Positions 10,499-19,442 of a stretch of DNA of 64,000 nt are shown one piece after another. The notes under the pieces are model-generated. The model did no database searches, was not told where the DNA came from, and worked only from the letters and a program-made list of their open reading frames with translations. Source of the stretch: Massilia sp. UMI-21 (lineage in GTDB: Bacteria; Pseudomonadota; Gammaproteobacteria; Burkholderiales; Burkholderiaceae_D). Each line of letters begins with the position of its first letter. The first letter of the stretch is position 1. The DNA lies in the NCBI GenBank assembly GCA_015277795.1, contig CP063848.1, positions 2,604,001-2,668,000 on the forward strand, in the 5' to 3' direction. A program made the translations under genes and the position numbers.

Positions 10499-11482
10499 TC
10501 AGGTCTGCAACTGGTCGTAGATGCGCCGCCGGCTGCCGGCCAGCGTCGCCGCCAGCGCCTGCGCGTCTTCGGCGCCGGCGTCGGCCAGCACCCGCAGCTT
10601 GGCCAGCCGGTCGCCCTCGTGCAGCGCCGCCGCCAGCGGCGTCGGATCCGCCTGGCCGGCCTGCTCAATAGCCTGGCCGACCGCCGGTGGCAAGTCCCAC
10701 AGCAGCGCGATCCGCGCCGACAGCGTGCGGGCGCCGTCGAGCAGCGCCTGCGCGAAGCCGTCCGACGAGGGCAGCGGGGCGGCACCGGCGACCTGGTCGG
10801 CCAGGCGGAAGGCGACGATCAGCCCGACGTTCTGCATGAGTCCCGCGAGGTAGGCTTCGAACGGGTTCGCTCCCAGTGCCGGCGCCGCCAGCGCGGCGGC
10901 CAGGGCGCATTTCTCGGACTGACTCCAGACCTGGGGCGCGGCCTGGCGCGCCAGTCGGCCGGCCTGGGCGCTGATCACCGGACGGAAGGCCACGCGCGCC
11001 AGCAGCATCCGCAAGCCGTTCTGGCCGAGCAGCATCAGCGCGCCTTCGATGTTGCGGACCGGCGCGCTGGGCCGGTAATAGGGGCTGTTGACCTCGCGGA
11101 TGACTTCGGCGACCAGGGTCACGTCCTGCGCGACCTGGCGCGCGAGTTCGGTCGCCGACATGGCGTCGTCGCGCAGGCTGCGCAGCAGTTGCGGGATCAC
11201 GGCGGGCACGCGCGGCACCAGCTCGGCGGCGGCGTCGGGCTGGCGCGCAAGCCGCGCCAGTTCGTCCAGGATCAATCGCTCGGGTGCGGCGCCGGCATGT
11301 GCGGTGACGCCCCCGAGCCAGCGATAGAACGCCAGGTCCAGATCCAGGTCCGGGTCCTGCTCCAGGTCGGGGGCGGGGGCCGCGGTGGCGACGCCTGGTC
11401 TTGCCTGATCCGACGCGGGAAGAGGCGCCGTGGTCCGCGGACGCGATCGATTGCCGAACAGGCGCGCAAGCCAGTCATGCAT
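10499..11482 (-). CDS. HDOD domain signalling protein
   Basis: HDOD is an HD-GYP/HD-related domain that usually lacks the metal-binding HD pair and acts as a signalling scaffold. Recognisable features are LPRVPAVIPQLLRSLRDD, LARQVAQDVTLVAEVIREVNSPYYR and the helix IEGALMLLGQNGLRMLLARVAF, the usual HDOD core. I place the start at MHDWLARLFGNRSR (11480-11482) because that N-terminus is typical of the family; a CTG or ATG upstream could add 11 residues. An acidic, Asp-rich linker near residues 35-60 separates this N-terminus from the HDOD core. It is likely involved in motility or cyclic di-GMP pathways, but this is family knowledge. Confidence 0.85.
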   Translation of the reverse strand: MHDWLARLFGNRSRPRTTAPLPASDQARPGVATAAPAPDLEQDPDLDLDLAFYRWLGGVTAHAGAAPERLILDELARLARQPDAAAELVPRVPAVIPQLLRSLRDDAMSATELARQVAQDVTLVAEVIREVNSPYYRPSAPVRNIEGALMLLGQNGLRMLLARVAFRPVISAQAGRLARQAAPQVWSQSEKCALAAALAAPALGANPFEAYLAGLMQNVGLIVAFRLADQVAGAAPLPSSDGFAQALLDGARTLSARIALLWDLPPAVGQAIEQAGQADPTPLAAALHEGDRLAKLRVLADAGAEDAQALAATLAGSRRRIYDQLQT

Positions 11483-11539
11483 GGTCGGCAGGATCAGGCT
11501 GGCGGCGCGCAGCAAGGCATGCGCCGGAGGGCGGGCCGC

Positions 11540-11818
11540 TTACTGGCCGTTGCCCGAGGGCGGCGGCGTGGTCGTGGCCGGCGGATTGGTGGTGCCGGTA
11601 TTCATGCCGCTCTGGCCGGAGCCGCTGGTGGTGCTGGTACCGATGTTGCCGGAAGCGCTCGAGCTGCCGGTGCCGGTGGTGCCCATGCTGCCCGCGTCCA
11701 TCGACGAGCCGGCGCTGGAGCCGGACATGCTGGACTCGGTATCGGTACCGGTGGTGTTGCAGGCTGCCAGCGACAGCGCCATGATGCCGCCCAATAAAAC
11801 GGTGTTGAGCTTGTTCAT
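11540..11818 (-). CDS. Small Ser/Gly/Thr-rich lipoprotein
   Basis: This 92-residue protein starts MNKLNTVLLGGIMALSLAAC, a signal peptide with an LAAC lipobox and lipidation at Cys20. The mature chain is almost entirely Ser, Gly, Thr, Met and Asn, with a proline/threonine C-terminus (PPATTTPPP), and is probably disordered on the cell surface or in the periplasm. A good RBS (GGAGAAT on minus) precedes the ATG. No domain is recognisable. Comparable low-complexity lipoproteins are frequent in this bacterial group without known function. Confidence 0.7.
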   Translation of the reverse strand: MNKLNTVLLGGIMALSLAACNTTGTDTESSMSGSSAGSSMDAGSMGTTGTGSSSASGNIGTSTTSGSGQSGMNTGTTNPPATTTPPPSGNGQ

Positions 11819-12000
11819 TCGTATTCTCCTCGGTGTGGATGGGTCGGATCATCATGCGAGGTGCGTGGCGTGCGTGAAATAGGAACAAAGCGTCAGTCGG
11901 TGTAGGAGGGTGCGTACATACTGCGCGGCGCGCGCGCGGCCCGGCCACCGCATACGGAAGCGGCGTCGTCGGCGCAAGCGGGGGATTGCCGCCGAGCGGC

Positions 12001-13767
12001 TCAGGTCGTGACCTGTTCGTGGCTTGCCAGCCACGCCAGCAGCTCGTCGGACGGCAGAGGACGGCTATAGAAGTAACCCTGGCCCTTGGCGCAGTGCTGG
12101 GCGCGCACGATGTCGGCCTGCGACTCGGTCTCGATCCCTTCGGCGACGGTCTTCATGCCCAGGCTCTGCGCCACCTTGACGGTGGCCTCGATCAGCACGC
12201 GGTGGTGGTGACTGGTATCTGCCTGGCAAACGAAGGAGCGGTCGATCTTGACCGTGTCCACCGGCAGCAGGTGCAGGCTCGACAGCGAAGAATAACCGGT
12301 GCCGAAATCGTCGAGCGCAAGCTGGATGCCCATGGCCTTGAGTTCGTGCAGGCGCTGCTGGATGCCCTGGTCCTGTGCCGCCAGGCTTTCGGTGACTTCG
12401 AGCTGCAGCTGGTCCGGGCGGATGCCGGTGAGCTGCAGCACGCGGCGCACGCTGTCGATCCAGCCGGGCTGGCCGAGCTGGGCGCGCGACAGGTTGACCG
12501 CGATCAGGCGCGGCGCGCCGTCTCCCAGCCGCGCGCGCCATTCCATGAAGTCGCGGCAGGAACGCTCGAGCACGAAGTCACCGAGCGCGCCGATCAGACC
12601 GCACTCTTCGGCGACGGTAATGAATTCGACCGGCGGCACGATGCCGCGCACCGGATGGCGCCAGCGCACCAGCGCCTCGACGCCGGCGGCGTGGTCGGTG
12701 CCGCCGTCGGGCAGCAGGCCGACCACCGGCTGGTATACGACGAACAGCTGTTCCTCGATCAGCGCCTGGCGCAGCTCGGCTTCGATGTCGGCACGGCGTG
12801 CCGCGCGTTCGCGCATGCTGGTCTCGAACACCAGTTGGCGCGCGCCGCCGGCGCGCTTGGCCTCGACCATGGCGATGCCGGCGTCGCGCAGGATCTCGTC
12901 GGCGTCGCGCGCGCCGCCATGCACGGCATCGGCGCCCCACACCAGTCCCAGGCTGGTGCCGCACACGACTTCGTGGCCCTGCACCCGGTAGGGCCGGGCC
13001 AGCGCGTCGAGGATACGGACCGCGACGCGCTCGGCGTCGTCGCGCTTGCGCATTCCGTCCAGCACCACCACGAATTCGTCGCCACCCACGCGCGCGGCCA
13101 GCTGGCCGCTTGCCGCGACGGTGTCGATGTGGTCGCTCGGCGGGCGCAGCGCACCGCGGATGCGGTCGGCGATCTGCACCAGCAGCTCGTCGCCGGCGGC
13201 CTGGCCCAGGGTGTCGTTGATGCGGCGAAAGCGGTCGCAATTCATGAACAGCACGGCAAACTCACCGCTCGAGAGCGGCCGCGCGACCAGGTGCTGGAGC
13301 TGTTCGCGCACCGCCTCGCGGTTCGGCATGCGGGTGAGCGCATCGGTCCGGGCGGCGTTGCGCAGCCGGCGCAGCAGGGTTTCCTGCTCGCGCTGGACCT
13401 CGAGCGTGGCGTCGGTGACCACCGCCATCAGGCGCTCGCTGTCGAGCTTCATCAGGCTGATGGCCAGCACCTGCGGGCTGCCGGGCGCGGTCAGCGTCGG
13501 CGGCAGGGTGGCGCGCAGCCCTTCGCACACGACGCCCGAGGTCTCGACGAACTCGGCGGCAAGCTGCGGCAACTGCGGCGCGATCGGCGCCAGCACGTCG
13601 AACAGGTTGTCCAGGCCGGCGCCGCGGGCCACCGGCATCAGGAGGTTCGAGGCCATCGGATTGAGCATGTCGACCGTGCCGTCGGATGCGATCTGGGCCA
13701 GCCCGATCGGTGCGCGGTACAGGAACTGCACCAGCGCTTCGTAGGCGTCGCTTGGATCAGGCGACAT
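12001..13767 (-). CDS. PAS-GGDEF-EAL cyclic di-GMP protein, probable phosphodiesterase
   Basis: This 588-residue protein starts at the ATG at 13765-13767, preceded by GAAGGAGAA; it overlaps the upstream cyclase gene by 11 nt. The N-terminal PAS-like module (VQFLYRAPIGLAQIASDG) closely resembles that of the upstream protein. The GGDEF domain keeps VGGDEFVVVL, but the metal-binding loop reads FMNCDRFRRINDTLGQ, with Asn in place of the first Asp and Gln in place of the GH histidine, and there is no RxxD I-site. The EAL domain looks intact: GVEALVRWRHP, AVNLSRAQL, LEVTES, ALDDFGTGYSSL, VKIDRSFV, AEGIET. I infer a c-di-GMP phosphodiesterase with a regulatory GGDEF domain, in the pyp operon. Confidence 0.9.
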   Translation of the reverse strand: MSPDPSDAYEALVQFLYRAPIGLAQIASDGTVDMLNPMASNLLMPVARGAGLDNLFDVLAPIAPQLPQLAAEFVETSGVVCEGLRATLPPTLTAPGSPQVLAISLMKLDSERLMAVVTDATLEVQREQETLLRRLRNAARTDALTRMPNREAVREQLQHLVARPLSSGEFAVLFMNCDRFRRINDTLGQAAGDELLVQIADRIRGALRPPSDHIDTVAASGQLAARVGGDEFVVVLDGMRKRDDAERVAVRILDALARPYRVQGHEVVCGTSLGLVWGADAVHGGARDADEILRDAGIAMVEAKRAGGARQLVFETSMRERAARRADIEAELRQALIEEQLFVVYQPVVGLLPDGGTDHAAGVEALVRWRHPVRGIVPPVEFITVAEECGLIGALGDFVLERSCRDFMEWRARLGDGAPRLIAVNLSRAQLGQPGWIDSVRRVLQLTGIRPDQLQLEVTESLAAQDQGIQQRLHELKAMGIQLALDDFGTGYSSLSSLHLLPVDTVKIDRSFVCQADTSHHHRVLIEATVKVAQSLGMKTVAEGIETESQADIVRAQHCAKGQGYFYSRPLPSDELLAWLASHEQVTT

Positions 13768-15169
13768 CGGGTTCTCCTTCGTTTGCTTCCGGTTGGTGGA
13801 CAGGGCTGGATGCCAGTTCGGGACGCCAGCGTTCGACGCGGTTGCGGCCGGCGCGCTTGGCCGCGTACAGGGCCTGGTCGGCGTGCCGCAACAGCAGGTC
13901 GATGCCGCCCATGCCATCGTCGAGGCTGGCCACGCCGGCGCTGACGGTGTAGCGGATCCGTTCGCCGTCGAAGTGGACGACTTCCGATGCCACCGCGGCG
14001 CGCAGGCGTTCGGCCACCACCGCCGCGCGCGGCAGGTCGGTGGACGGCAGCAGCACCGCGAACTCCTCGCCGCCTATGCGGGCGACCACGTCGACCTCGC
14101 GGAAGGTCTCGCCCAGCAGCGCGGCCAGGTGCTGCAGCACGGCGTCCCCGCCCGGGTGACCGTGGCGATCGTTGATGGCCTTGAAGTGGTCGGCGTCGAA
14201 CGCGATGACGGCGGTCGGGCGCGGCAGCATCCTGCTGCGCCCCAGCTCCTGCTCGGCCGCTTCGAAGAAGGCGCGGCGGTTGGCCAGGCCGGTCAGGTAG
14301 TCGCCGAAGGCTTCGCGGCGGCGCCGATCGCTGGCTTCGCGCTTGTCGGTGATGTCGCGCAGGATCAGGCAATAGGCCGGACCTTCCGGTTCGGCGCAGC
14401 CGGCCGCTCCGCGCGCTTCCTCGGCGGCCCGTTCGTTCAGCGGAGCGATCAGGACGCTGCCCCAGAAAGCGCTGCCGTCGGCGCGCACGCGCTTGCCTTC
14501 GTCCAGGCTCCAGCCGTCGCGCTCGGCGTCGCCCAGGCGGTCCAGCACGTGTTCGGGCGTGATCGCGTCCGGCGGGTAGAAGATGGAATACGGCTGGCCC
14601 ACGGCTTCCTGGCCGAAGCCGGTGACGCGGCCGATGCTCGGGTTCCACTCGGTGATCGTGCCGCGCGCGTCCAGGCCGGCGAGGGCGTAGTCGGTGATGC
14701 CGGTCAGGATGGCGTTGAACCACGCATCGTTCTGGCGCAGCTGGCGCTCGCGCCGCACCTGGAGGGTGACGTCGTCGATCACCGCCATGATGCGGCGGGC
14801 GTCGAGCTTGAGCAGGGTGAGCGCCAGGATCTGCGGCGCCTTGCGGGCGGCGGCGCCGGCGTTCAGGTGCACATGCAGACCGTCGCAGATCTTGCCGGAC
14901 GGGCGCGCGTAGGCGCCGCACAGGTGACGCAGTTCGGGCGCCACGTTCTCGAGCGCGGTGAACAGGTTGTCCAGGTTGGCGTCGCGCGACAGCGGCATCA
15001 GGAGCTGGGCCGAGATCGGATTCATCATCACGATGCGTCCGTCGATGTCGGCCTGCACCAGGCCGACCGGCGCCAGGTACAGGAACTGCATCAGCGCTTC
15101 GTGCTCGGCGCGCAGTTGCCCGATCTCGTCCACCTGCTCGCTTGCCTTCACGTCGGCCTTCGCGCTCAC
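13757..15169 (-). CDS. PAS-PAS-GGDEF diguanylate cyclase
   Basis: This 470-residue protein starts only 5 nt after the pyp stop codon. An N-terminal PAS-like module (MQFLYLAPVGLVQADIDG) is followed by a second PAS with PAC (around AWFNAILTGITDYALAGLD to YCLILRDITDKRE), then a GGDEF domain. The catalytic loop is intact: AFDADHFKAINDRHGHPGGD and ARIGGEEFAVLLP. REVD lies five residues before GGEEF, matching an RxxD product-inhibition I-site. It is predicted to make c-di-GMP from two GTP and to be feedback inhibited. Operon position makes it the most likely partner of the PYP photosensor. Confidence 0.92.
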   Translation of the reverse strand: MSAKADVKASEQVDEIGQLRAEHEALMQFLYLAPVGLVQADIDGRIVMMNPISAQLLMPLSRDANLDNLFTALENVAPELRHLCGAYARPSGKICDGLHVHLNAGAAARKAPQILALTLLKLDARRIMAVIDDVTLQVRRERQLRQNDAWFNAILTGITDYALAGLDARGTITEWNPSIGRVTGFGQEAVGQPYSIFYPPDAITPEHVLDRLGDAERDGWSLDEGKRVRADGSAFWGSVLIAPLNERAAEEARGAAGCAEPEGPAYCLILRDITDKREASDRRRREAFGDYLTGLANRRAFFEAAEQELGRSRMLPRPTAVIAFDADHFKAINDRHGHPGGDAVLQHLAALLGETFREVDVVARIGGEEFAVLLPSTDLPRAAVVAERLRAAVASEVVHFDGERIRYTVSAGVASLDDGMGGIDLLLRHADQALYAAKRAGRNRVERWRPELASSPVHQPEANEGEPDVA

Positions 15170-15174
15170 GGGGC

Positions 15175-15567
15175 TCAGCGCGGCTGGCGCTGGACCAGCA
15201 CGTAGCGGCTCGCGCCGTTCGGGCTGGCCAGGAGGCGCAGGGCCACCTTGACCGGACGCATGCGCAGGGTCAGGACATAATCGATGGTGTCGTCCAGCGC
15301 GCCGCCTTCGTCCAGCGCATCCTCGAAACGCTGCGCAACCATGAAGTTGTTCAGGCAGGGCGCCACGTTGGTGAACAGCGGCTGGCCGAGCACGCGCTGC
15401 GGCGACAGCCCGGCGGCCTGCGATTCGAAGGCGTTGTAGCGCTGCACATTATTGTCGGTATCGAAACCGATCACACCAAAGTCGAGCTGGTCGAGCTGCT
15501 CCGGGGAGCAGGCGTCGAGATGCGAAGCCAGGTCGGCGGTCGAAAACGACAGGGTAGGGGCGGTCAT
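15175..15567 (-). CDS. pyp: Photoactive yellow protein (PYP) homologue
   Basis: This is a 130-residue PAS-fold blue-light receptor. It aligns almost gap-free with Halorhodospira PYP from FSTADLASHL to the C-terminus, including QLDFGVIGFD, RYNAFES, VLGQPLFTNVAPC and MRPVKV. Cys71 of the VAPC motif corresponds to the p-coumarate-binding Cys69, Tyr44 to Tyr42, Glu48 to Glu46, and Met103 to the isomerisation-lowering Met100. Thr50 is replaced by Ala52 and the Arg52 gate by Leu54. I choose the ATG at 15565-15567 because it gives the family length; an ATG at 15624 would add 19 residues. It heads an operon with two c-di-GMP enzymes and is divergent from the ligase gene. Homology is confident; chromophore binding is inferred. 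Confidence 0.9.
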   Translation of the reverse strand: MTAPTLSFSTADLASHLDACSPEQLDQLDFGVIGFDTDNNVQRYNAFESQAAGLSPQRVLGQPLFTNVAPCLNNFMVAQRFEDALDEGGALDDTIDYVLTLRMRPVKVALRLLASPNGASRYVLVQRQPR

Positions 15568-15617
15568 GGTACGGGATCCGGCGTCGATGCGCGTAAGTTG
15601 ATTTGAGGAAATTGATG

Positions 15618-15718
15618 TTGACATGCCGCCAGTACGCTTGTCAATTGTGCGCGCTTATTCCTTGACACTTTGCGTTGTCGAATAGCACATTCGGCATGTT
15701 TTTTCCGCAGGCTTGACA
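15618..15718. promoter_or_regulatory. Divergent pyp/ligase control region with repeated TTGACA hexamers
   Basis: The interval between pyp and the ligase gene carries TTGACA on the plus strand at 15618-15623, 15662-15667 and 15713-15718, and on the minus strand at 15639-15644. Any of these could be a -35 element, but none has a convincing -10 at 16-18 bp. The relatively AT-rich core and divergent layout make this the expected shared promoter region. Confidence 0.35.
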
Positions 15719-15758
15719 GCGTCCGGCGGCACCGGCACCATCAGCGCCTGTTTCCGCG

Positions 15759-17048
15759 ATGCTCCTCATGACTGTCAGTACAACTCTTGCACCCGACCGC
15801 GACCTGCGCTGGTGGTCGCACCGCCCGACCCTGTTGCGTGTCCTGTCCGACCTGCTCGCCGGCGAACTGGCGCTGATGCGCCCCGGGCTGGCCCGCCGCC
15901 CGCTGCCATGGCCGCCCGGCCTCGATCTCGCGGCCGAGCTCGGCGCCGATTCGCTCGAACTGCTGGGCCTGGCAACCGCAATGGAACAGGTGCTCGGCAT
16001 CGGCTGCATCGGCCAGGAACGGGTGCTGGCCGCCCCGCGCCTGAACGCCTGGCTCGCGGCGGCGGCGTCCGGGCTCGACCAGGGCAGCGGCGTGATGCGC
16101 TTCCGCACCTCCGGTAGTTCGGGTGCGCCCAAGACCTGCAGCCACGCGCTGGGCGCGCTGTGGCAGGAGGCGGAGGCGCTGGCGGCCCTGGTTCCCGGCA
16201 CGCGCCGGATCGTCAGCCTGGTTCCATCGCACCATATTTACGGCTTCCTGTTCACGGTCTTGCTGCCGCACGCGCTCGGGTTCGGGCCTGGCCACGACGC
16301 GGTGGTCGACCTGCGCGGCATGACGCCCGGGGCGGTGGCAGGCCGGCTTCAGCCGGGCGACCTGGTGGTGGGGTTCCCCGATTTCTGGCGCGCCTTCGCC
16401 CCGCTGGCGGCGTGCGCGCCGGGCGGCCTGGCCGCGCACCTGACCGGCGTCAGCTCGACGGCGCCGTGCCCGGACGAGGTGGCGCACGCCGTGCGCGCGG
16501 CCGGCGTGGCGCGGCTGGTGCAGGTCTACGGCAGCTCGGAAACGGCCGGCGTCGGCTGGCGCGACGACCCGGCGGCCGACTACCAGCTGTTCCGGTACTG
16601 GGAAGCGGGCGCGCAAGCCTGCAGCCTGGTGCGGCGTCACGCCGATGGCAGCCGCGCCGCCTATCCCTTGCAGGACCGGCTGGCCTGGAGCGCCCCCGAC
16701 CGGTTCCGTCCTGCCGGCCGGATCGACCACGCGGTGCAGGTCGGCGGCGTCAATGTCTTCCCCGCCTACGTCGCGGACGTACTGCGCACCCACCCGCAGG
16801 TCGAGGATGTCGTGGTGCGCCCCATGCGGCCCGACGAAGGCGTGCGCCTGAAGGCCTTCGTGGTGCCCCGCGGCGACGTGCCGGCCGAGGGTGGCGCGGC
16901 GGCCGCGGCACTGCGCGCGGAACTGGGTGCATGGATCGGCGAGCGCCTGCCGGCCCCCGAGCGGCCGATGGCCTGGTCGTTCGGCGCCGCCTTGCCGCGC
17001 CAGGCCAACGGCAAGCTGTCGGACTGGATCATCGACAGCGCCGACTGA
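15759..17048 (+). CDS. AMP-forming aryl ligase, probable 4-coumarate ligase for PYP chromophore
   Basis: This 429-residue ANL-superfamily ligase has the AMP-binding P-loop FRTSGSSGAPK near residue 120, SLVPSHHIYGFLF, VYGSSETAG (A5), GRIDHAVQVGGVNVFPAYV (A8) and the catalytic lysine in RQANGKLSDW near the C-terminus. It is shorter than plant 4CL-type enzymes (~500-550). A family of short 4-coumarate ligases is known to accompany pyp and to activate p-coumarate for the chromophore; position next to pyp supports this. The ~105 residues before the P-loop look like an acyl carrier protein (LGADSLELLGLATAMEQVLG, Ser65), so the thioester carrier may be in cis. A second ATG lies at 15768. Confidence 0.85.
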   Translation: MLLMTVSTTLAPDRDLRWWSHRPTLLRVLSDLLAGELALMRPGLARRPLPWPPGLDLAAELGADSLELLGLATAMEQVLGIGCIGQERVLAAPRLNAWLAAAASGLDQGSGVMRFRTSGSSGAPKTCSHALGALWQEAEALAALVPGTRRIVSLVPSHHIYGFLFTVLLPHALGFGPGHDAVVDLRGMTPGAVAGRLQPGDLVVGFPDFWRAFAPLAACAPGGLAAHLTGVSSTAPCPDEVAHAVRAAGVARLVQVYGSSETAGVGWRDDPAADYQLFRYWEAGAQACSLVRRHADGSRAAYPLQDRLAWSAPDRFRPAGRIDHAVQVGGVNVFPAYVADVLRTHPQVEDVVVRPMRPDEGVRLKAFVVPRGDVPAEGGAAAAALRAELGAWIGERLPAPERPMAWSFGAALPRQANGKLSDWIIDSAD

Positions 17049-17060
17049 GGCCCTGCCGGA

Positions 17061-19442
<2,382 letters not shown>

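Follow-up and report, generated by a model that had tools for sequence, protein, structure and literature searches.

We report here on a group of four genes in Massilia sp. UMI-21 (contig CP063848.1) that encodes a photoactive yellow protein (PYP), a diguanylate cyclase, a cyclic di-GMP (c-di-GMP) phosphodiesterase and, divergently, a p-coumarate:CoA ligase-like protein. The genes lie within a stretch of 64,000 nucleotides, positions 2,604,001 to 2,668,000 of the forward strand, that was analysed as a whole and is referred to as the window. Both enzymes begin with the same PAS-fold domain of approximately 125 residues, for which we use the name N-PAS. In the sets of genomes searched, N-PAS is nearly exclusively tied to PYPs of clade C, to which the window PYP was assigned by its residues and not by a tree with the published clades.

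The features are listed in Table 1. Domains were assigned by Pfam and NCBIfam searches on the open reading frames (ORFs) of the window, and the source genome is a single contig of 5.30 Mb. The pyp stop and the cyclase start are separated by 5 nt, and the cyclase and phosphodiesterase genes overlap by 11 nt. An earlier note on this DNA, made from the sequence alone, had given this gap and overlap, the gene order and strands, and the ligase on the plus strand; re-reading the ORF coordinates returned the same layout. The note suggested looking for a conserved order in pyp neighbourhoods, and such an order is seen: of 80 related loci from named genomes, 63 have PYP, cyclase and phosphodiesterase together. 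Since order and domains recur in this way we regard the three minus-strand ORFs as real and not due to chance. Judged by sequence, they likely form one operon. A promoter scan of positions 11400-17200 found no sigma-70 consensus site, and a terminator scan gave one terminator-like site (plus strand, 15676-15696; shuffled mean 2.0). The nearest named relatives, among them Massilia sp. IC2-477, whose N-PAS is 87% identical, place the source genome with the Massilia-like Oxalobacteraceae. The downstream HDOD-domain gene (10499-11515, minus strand) was considered as a member of the system and rejected, as it is near pyp in only 21 of the 80 related loci.

Table 1. Features of the pyp locus in the window, and loci elsewhere that are referred to in the text (G and L numbers denote genomes and loci)
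Feature	Position	Strand	Remarks
pyp, clade C-type photoactive yellow protein	15175..15624	minus	149 aa counted from the first ATG (M1); start uncertain, M20 possible
Diguanylate cyclase, N-PAS - PAS - GGDEF	13757..15169	minus	470 aa, GTG start; GGDEF E 7e-42
Phosphodiesterase, N-PAS - GGDEF - EAL	12001..13767	minus	588 aa, ATG start; AAGGAG upstream
pcl, p-coumarate:CoA ligase-like, divergent	15759..17048	plus	TIGR02372 E 1e-87
Divergent intergenic region	15625..15758		134 bp
N-PAS of cyclase (130-aa stretch as folded)	14738..15127	minus	window copy without Pfam match; AF2 pLDDT 87
Second, ordinary PAS of cyclase	14306..14743	minus	PF00989 E 8e-7, sensory_box E 7e-10
GGDEF domain of cyclase	13838..14305	minus	motif GGEEF, I-site REVD
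N-PAS of phosphodiesterase	13369..13767	minus	48% identity to cyclase N-PAS
GGDEF domain of phosphodiesterase	12844..13350	minus	motif intact, Asn at first metal-ligand position
EAL domain of phosphodiesterase	12058..12780	minus	catalytic motifs intact
Second pyp operon	G000:C1:3739008-3743191 (L039: 5009-9192)		outside the window
N-PAS histidine kinases	L215: 7787-9208; L216: 3656-5047; L217: 5199-6467; L250: 5319-6614

The first approximately 125 residues of the cyclase and the phosphodiesterase are 48% identical, and relatives align over the full length of this segment with the signature EALxQFLYxAPVGL ... NPxSAQLLMP ... LDNLF ... ICDGL and with conserved Met, Asn and Cys positions. None of 37 N-PAS members matched a Pfam family above its gathering score (three families match weakly, one member each, best E 0.15), and the N-PAS profile has no sequence relatives in the PDB at E up to 1. 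An AlphaFold2 (AF2) model of the cyclase N-PAS has PAS topology, with a predicted local distance difference test score (pLDDT) of 87 and a predicted template modelling score (pTM) of 0.77. Foldseek searches with this model returned PAS domains in general, the top matches being the NifL-NifA complex and a WalK model, with PYP from rank 7. The idea that N-PAS is a recent copy of PYP was tried and rejected: profile comparison gave probabilities of 0.7% against clade C PYP, 5% against canonical PYP and 2% against the second PAS, and an origin by duplication of PYP is thus not apparent. In the same comparison clade C and canonical PYP, the positive control, gave 99.6%, and the second PAS of the cyclase matched clade C PYP with 88%. 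We found no description of a domain common to PYP-adjacent enzymes in the open PubMed Central literature, although one may exist elsewhere. Within the limits of the literature covered, N-PAS, its distribution, its histidine-kinase versions and the fixed Asn of the phosphodiesterase GGDEF domain (see below) appear to be new.

The distribution of N-PAS was studied with a profile seeded from pyp neighbourhoods, the genome searches scoring the best 10-14 candidates per genome; clade C PYP matches below 70 bits were dropped from the family residue counts and those below 100 bits from the named-locus counts. N-PAS occurs only twice in the source genome, both times in this operon, against 79 Pfam PAS, 64 GGDEF and 37 EAL matches. 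In a draw of 294 genomes from the family, N-PAS was present in 60, a PYP match in 60 and both in 59 (Fisher p 6e-60, kinship ignored, a value that overstates the association, given overlapping draws and related genomes). The PYP-only genome, G043, is still counted in this table; its match (E 5e-4) is on reading an ordinary PAS-GGDEF protein and spurious. Seen from the PYP side, 62 of the 63 clade C PYPs in the family draw have an N-PAS less than 700 bp away, and the remaining one is at a contig end. Conversely, of 116 copies of N-PAS, 109 have a clade C PYP at a distance of no more than 2.5 kb. The remaining seven comprise the copy in G072 (see below), one in G096 and five of phosphodiesterase type on other contigs of genomes with a clade C PYP. 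The G096 copy, in a second N-PAS cyclase of that genome, is preceded by a frame of 59 residues that matches clade C PYP (L207: 6586-6765), perhaps a sensor that has decayed while the cyclase was retained.

The wider draws gave the same picture. All 11 N-PAS genomes in a draw of 399 genomes from the order (six of them shared with the family draw) have a clade C PYP. A draw of 299 genomes from the phylum contained N-PAS in two, both already counted, and three genomes with other PYP-like matches and without N-PAS. Four genomes with low-scoring PYP matches (G415, G818, G841 and G933) have no N-PAS, and the four PYPs of G415 fit the canonical profile better; they are encoded as two pairs around a ligase-like gene (L252: 5636-9452).

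Named loci were the best 80 of 160 relatives from a profile scan of one genome per species over 84,980 species, and many of them repeat assemblies of the family draw. PYP lies less than 150 bp upstream of N-PAS in 79 of the 80 loci, and the last locus starts inside N-PAS at a contig end. What follows N-PAS is more variable. Besides the 63 loci with PYP, cyclase and phosphodiesterase there are nine in which no N-PAS-EAL gene was found (some of these stretches are short; L166 has an N-PAS-GGDEF fragment and L168 an EAL gene without N-PAS), three with a cyclase lacking GGDEF, two with fusions lacking the cyclase GGDEF, two without a cyclase and one cut at a contig end. In Telluria antibiotica (L192) N-PAS is a free-standing small protein encoded between pyp and the phosphodiesterase gene, and in four genomes from two other Burkholderiales families it heads HisKA-HATPase_c kinases beside a clade C PYP (Table 1). 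A ligase scoring above 250 bits is present in 35 of the 80 loci. N-PAS thus stays constant beside PYP while the catalytic part varies, and it is most readily taken for the part that responds to PYP. We lean, by a small margin of confidence, towards N-PAS being a dedicated plug-in receiver for clade C PYP, used on cyclases, phosphodiesterases or histidine kinases.

Alternatively, N-PAS might be a sensor of its own, for a small ligand, flavin or heme, with PYP as a second input elsewhere, e.g. to the other PAS of the cyclase or to transcription; the linkage of the genes would then reflect integration of two signals and not docking. Its ordinary PAS fold, with NifL-NifA and WalK ahead of PYP among the PDB matches, its conserved Met, Asn and Cys positions and the one genome with an N-PAS cyclase and no PYP match agree with such a role. 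An independent sensor should nevertheless be seen more often without PYP than in a single N-PAS genome lacking clade C PYP across the three draws. Nor does such a role sit easily with a domain that begins three kinds of protein (cyclases, phosphodiesterases, histidine kinases) and, with few exceptions, neighbours clade C PYP, or with the free-standing N-PAS of L192, and we consider it unlikely.

The system is also found on plasmids. A plasmid collection held 13 records with PYP and 11 with N-PAS, and in all 11 a PYP adjoins N-PAS by coordinates (confirmed by profile in nine). Caballeronia SBC2, with five PYP places, and Indioceanicola, with three, were read at some of these places. The N-PAS plasmids belong to Caballeronia (three), Rhizobium (three), Polymorphobacter (two), Sphingomonas, Methylobacterium and Indioceanicola (one each), so that 8 of the 11 are from Alphaproteobacteria. 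The Indioceanicola plasmid carries, in one row, a canonical pyp, pcl, an ammonia lyase gene, a clade C pyp and an N-PAS cyclase, and a Niveispirillum plasmid has a canonical-type PYP and no N-PAS match. In five records (CP099603, NZ_CP071131, NZ_CP048421, NZ_CP049159 and NZ_CP049319) the clade C-like PYP is annotated as 'phosphonate transporter', apparently a misnomer that hides the family.

That several alpha- and betaproteobacteria carry the genes on plasmids raises the alternative that the genes are a travelling, co-transcribed light-response cassette in which PYP and the c-di-GMP enzymes never come into contact. The divergence of all operon members is correlated with no excess for the PYP/N-PAS pair, which fits a cassette. 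However, the ligase (35 of 80 loci) and the output enzymes are variable and only the PYP/N-PAS pair is nearly constant; furthermore, the five phosphodiesterase-type N-PAS genes that lie on other contigs are yet in genomes with a clade C PYP. We therefore give the cassette an even smaller chance than the independent sensor.

The window PYP aligns to solved PYP structures in the PDB (E 1.6e-16) and has Tyr42, Glu46 and Cys69, as do all 63 family copies (window included) and all 79 named relatives, in keeping with the earlier note, which had reported the Cys, Tyr and Glu of the chromophore site as retained. Among ten plasmid PYPs, six of them read by eye, Cys and Glu are present in 10/10 and Tyr in 8/10. 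Thr50 and Arg52 are replaced by Ala and Leu, which Dohmen et al. (2025; PMC12826048) give as the family consensus. By the PDB alignment, read by eye, Ile, Leu and Tyr stand for Phe92, Phe96 and Trp119, with Met100 kept, a clade C trait; loss of these three aromatic residues is described for clade C PYPs by Xing et al. (2022; PMC9664959). By its sequence the window PYP is expected to bind p-coumarate. The absorbance maximum near 446 nm that the note forecast is uncertain because residue 50 is Ala: PMC12826048 lists four Ala50 PYPs with maxima averaging 451 +/- 13 nm (range 435-465).

These same replacements, together with a TIGR02373 score below the cut-off, would also fit a clade C PYP that is no longer a p-coumarate photoreceptor and serves as another kind of sensor or as a structural partner. 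Invariance of Tyr42, Glu46 and Cys69 in the family and named copies and of Cys and Glu in the plasmid copies speaks against this, as do the consensus status of Ala50 and Leu52, the adjoining ligase-like gene and the Indioceanicola row of pyp, pcl and ammonia lyase followed by a clade C pyp; we regard such a loss as very improbable.

A source of chromophore may lie elsewhere in the genome. In a second pyp locus outside the window (Table 1) the genes for a canonical PYP (TIGR02373 189.6 bits), a ligase-like protein and an aromatic ammonia lyase stand in a row, and this lyase could supply p-coumarate. The ligase there scores 330.8 bits on TIGR02372, also below the cut-off of 334.7. The second pyp operon is followed by a MerR regulator with B12-binding domains and a W-x9-EH motif (CarH-like, E 1.5e-30, below its cut-off), and similar MerR/B12 regulators are near canonical pyp in L068, L070 and L074; two kinds of photoreceptor may therefore share an operon.

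Both output enzymes look active. In the window cyclase the GGEEF motif, the metal Asp and the guanine-binding Asn and Asp are all present, and each position is kept in 51-54 of 54 copies; the metal Asp is present in 53 and the I-site RxxD in 54, while the GGEEF motif is lost in two copies and reads GGEQF in one. These 54 copies are the 61 cyclase-type N-PAS rows minus seven that lack, in the same frame, a GGDEF match above 120 bits: two are fusions, two have no GGDEF, one is split over two frames, one is an N-PAS-GGDEF-EAL gene and one breaks off. GGEEF and RxxD in the window copy agree with the intact catalytic and I-site residues described earlier. The phosphodiesterase matches EAL with E 4e-70 and GGDEF with E 5e-31. 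The EAL motif and the catalytic acidic residues, Lys and Gln are in place. Its EALVRW and DDFGTGYSS motifs are each present in 48/48 copies; the other motifs are also retained, and where they vary the changes are conservative and spare the catalytic positions.

The phosphodiesterase GGDEF domain is different. Its motif is intact (RVGGDEF), the first metal-binding Asp is Asn in all 48 copies, window included (two further alignment rows are fragments and stand outside this number), and the domain has no clear I-site. Of the two statements made earlier about this gene, the intact EAL stands as given, and the degenerate GGDEF stands on account of the Asp to Asn change and the missing I-site, not of the GGDEF motif itself. 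The source genome has 37 EAL loci, and in 32 GGDEF rows taken from 30 of them, operon included, the position is Asp in 24 and Asn in four, and from the fixed Asn, set against mostly Asp elsewhere in the genome, the domain is probably not a second cyclase. GTP-binding regulatory GGDEF domains occur in other GGDEF-EAL proteins, and by analogy the domain is expected to be a GTP-binding allosteric or regulatory part.

Taking together the gene order, the active-site residues, the likeness of the two N-PAS domains and the near-exclusive link to clade C PYP, all of which are observed, we consider it fairly probable that the operon encodes a split photoreceptor in which PYP acts via N-PAS on the cyclase and the phosphodiesterase, so that one sensor sets c-di-GMP. 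Specifically, the ammonia lyase of the second pyp locus would make p-coumarate, which the pcl product would charge and attach to the clade C PYP at Cys69. The state of PYP would be switched by blue light, and in one state PYP would bind, or release, the N-PAS of the cyclase and that of the phosphodiesterase. Synthesis and breakdown of c-di-GMP would thereby be set by one sensor, with the phosphodiesterase GGDEF, its metal Asp replaced, binding GTP allosterically and making no c-di-GMP. An effect on behaviour may follow: with seven flagellin-N and five PilZ matches in the source genome, an output on motility is plausible.

Several points weigh against the split photoreceptor. As to the linkage, the N-PAS profile derives from pyp neighbourhoods, and remoter N-PAS relatives elsewhere may therefore be missed; the named loci cover the best 80 of 160 relatives. 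In the family genome G072 an N-PAS cyclase occurs without a PYP match, either in the genome or in the 12 kb fetched around it. G453, an incomplete genome of the order draw with a clade C PYP elsewhere, has a third, diverged N-PAS cyclase without PYP in 12 kb; this N-PAS-PAS-GGDEF gene lies at L248: 6104-7690 and scores 82 bits. No N-PAS match accompanies the clade C-like PYP of the Comamonadaceae plasmid CP099603; this PYP gene is convergent with the gene for a 1368-aa PAS protein, which is followed by a BLUF gene and a cyclase (L194: 4986-10351). In L127 (8043-8963), L129 (9968-10804) and L154 (9719-10792) the N-PAS-PAS protein has no GGDEF; it ends after the second PAS and is retained between pyp and the phosphodiesterase gene. 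As to contact, a tandem AF2 model of PYP with N-PAS reached pLDDT 88 with pTM of only 0.61, and hence the domains are fixed and their relative placement is not settled. Evolutionary distances correlate better between PYP and EAL (0.81) and PYP and pCL (0.85) than between PYP and the two N-PAS (0.75 and 0.79). As to the photoreceptor itself, the window PYP matches TIGR02373 photo_yellow with E 4e-23 and 81.8 bits, short of the curated cut-off of 143.05 bits, which governs naming and is not itself a trait (the model covers only 20% of BLAST-found PYP homologs; PMC9664959), and two of the ten plasmid PYPs have Phe42. The window ligase reaches 294.3 bits on TIGR02372 (E 1e-87), again below the cut-off, hence 'ligase-like'. 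Finally, according to PMC9664959, no clade C PYP has been characterised so far.

PYP-linked c-di-GMP genes have been described before. Xing et al. (PMC9664959) note that clade C (Burkholderiales) PYPs often adjoin GGDEF and EAL genes, and Dohmen et al. (PMC12826048) count GGDEF in 29 pyp operons and EAL in 22. The earlier suggestion that a one-operon link of PYP to both synthesis and breakdown of c-di-GMP is unusual is thus not supported. The window operon belongs to the published clade C set, being of the same clade by residues and having the same neighbours and the same proposed c-di-GMP output. How single-domain PYP, which ranks among the best-studied photoreceptors, transfers its signal is not known according to both papers, and PMC12826048 calls this an "important gap". 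N-PAS, present on three kinds of output protein, is a candidate receiver for the signal of one PYP clade, and if this is true it would, relative to the parts of PMC9664959 and PMC12826048 consulted, be the first sequence-defined partner domain for a single-domain PYP. A single type of contact would then let one photoreceptor control two enzymes of opposite effect, which would explain how a single sensor sets both arms of the motile/sessile decision in Oxalobacteraceae and relatives. Moreover, N-PAS would in that case be an off-the-shelf module for placing c-di-GMP or histidine kinases under the control of light.

Other known systems share some of these features. Rc-PYP of Rhodobacter capsulatus is a single-domain PYP that reportedly has a protein partner, a PYP-binding protein (Kim et al. 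2021). The PYP of Idiomarina loihiensis is likewise single-domain and is proposed to bind an adjacent GGDEF protein, affecting biofilm under blue light; it is of clade A, whereas the window PYP is of clade C (PMC9664959). In CetA/CetB of Campylobacter jejuni a free PAS sensor signals to a separate output protein, as we propose here, but the sensor is a flavin redox sensor and the output a chemoreceptor, unlike in the window system (PMC9664959). Ppd of Thermochromatium tepidum (PMC9664959, PMC12826048) joins PYP input to c-di-GMP enzymes, as here, and does so in one polypeptide, PYP-phytochrome-GGDEF-EAL; the domain search found no phytochrome domain in the operon proteins of the window, where a free PYP stands beside two separate enzyme proteins.

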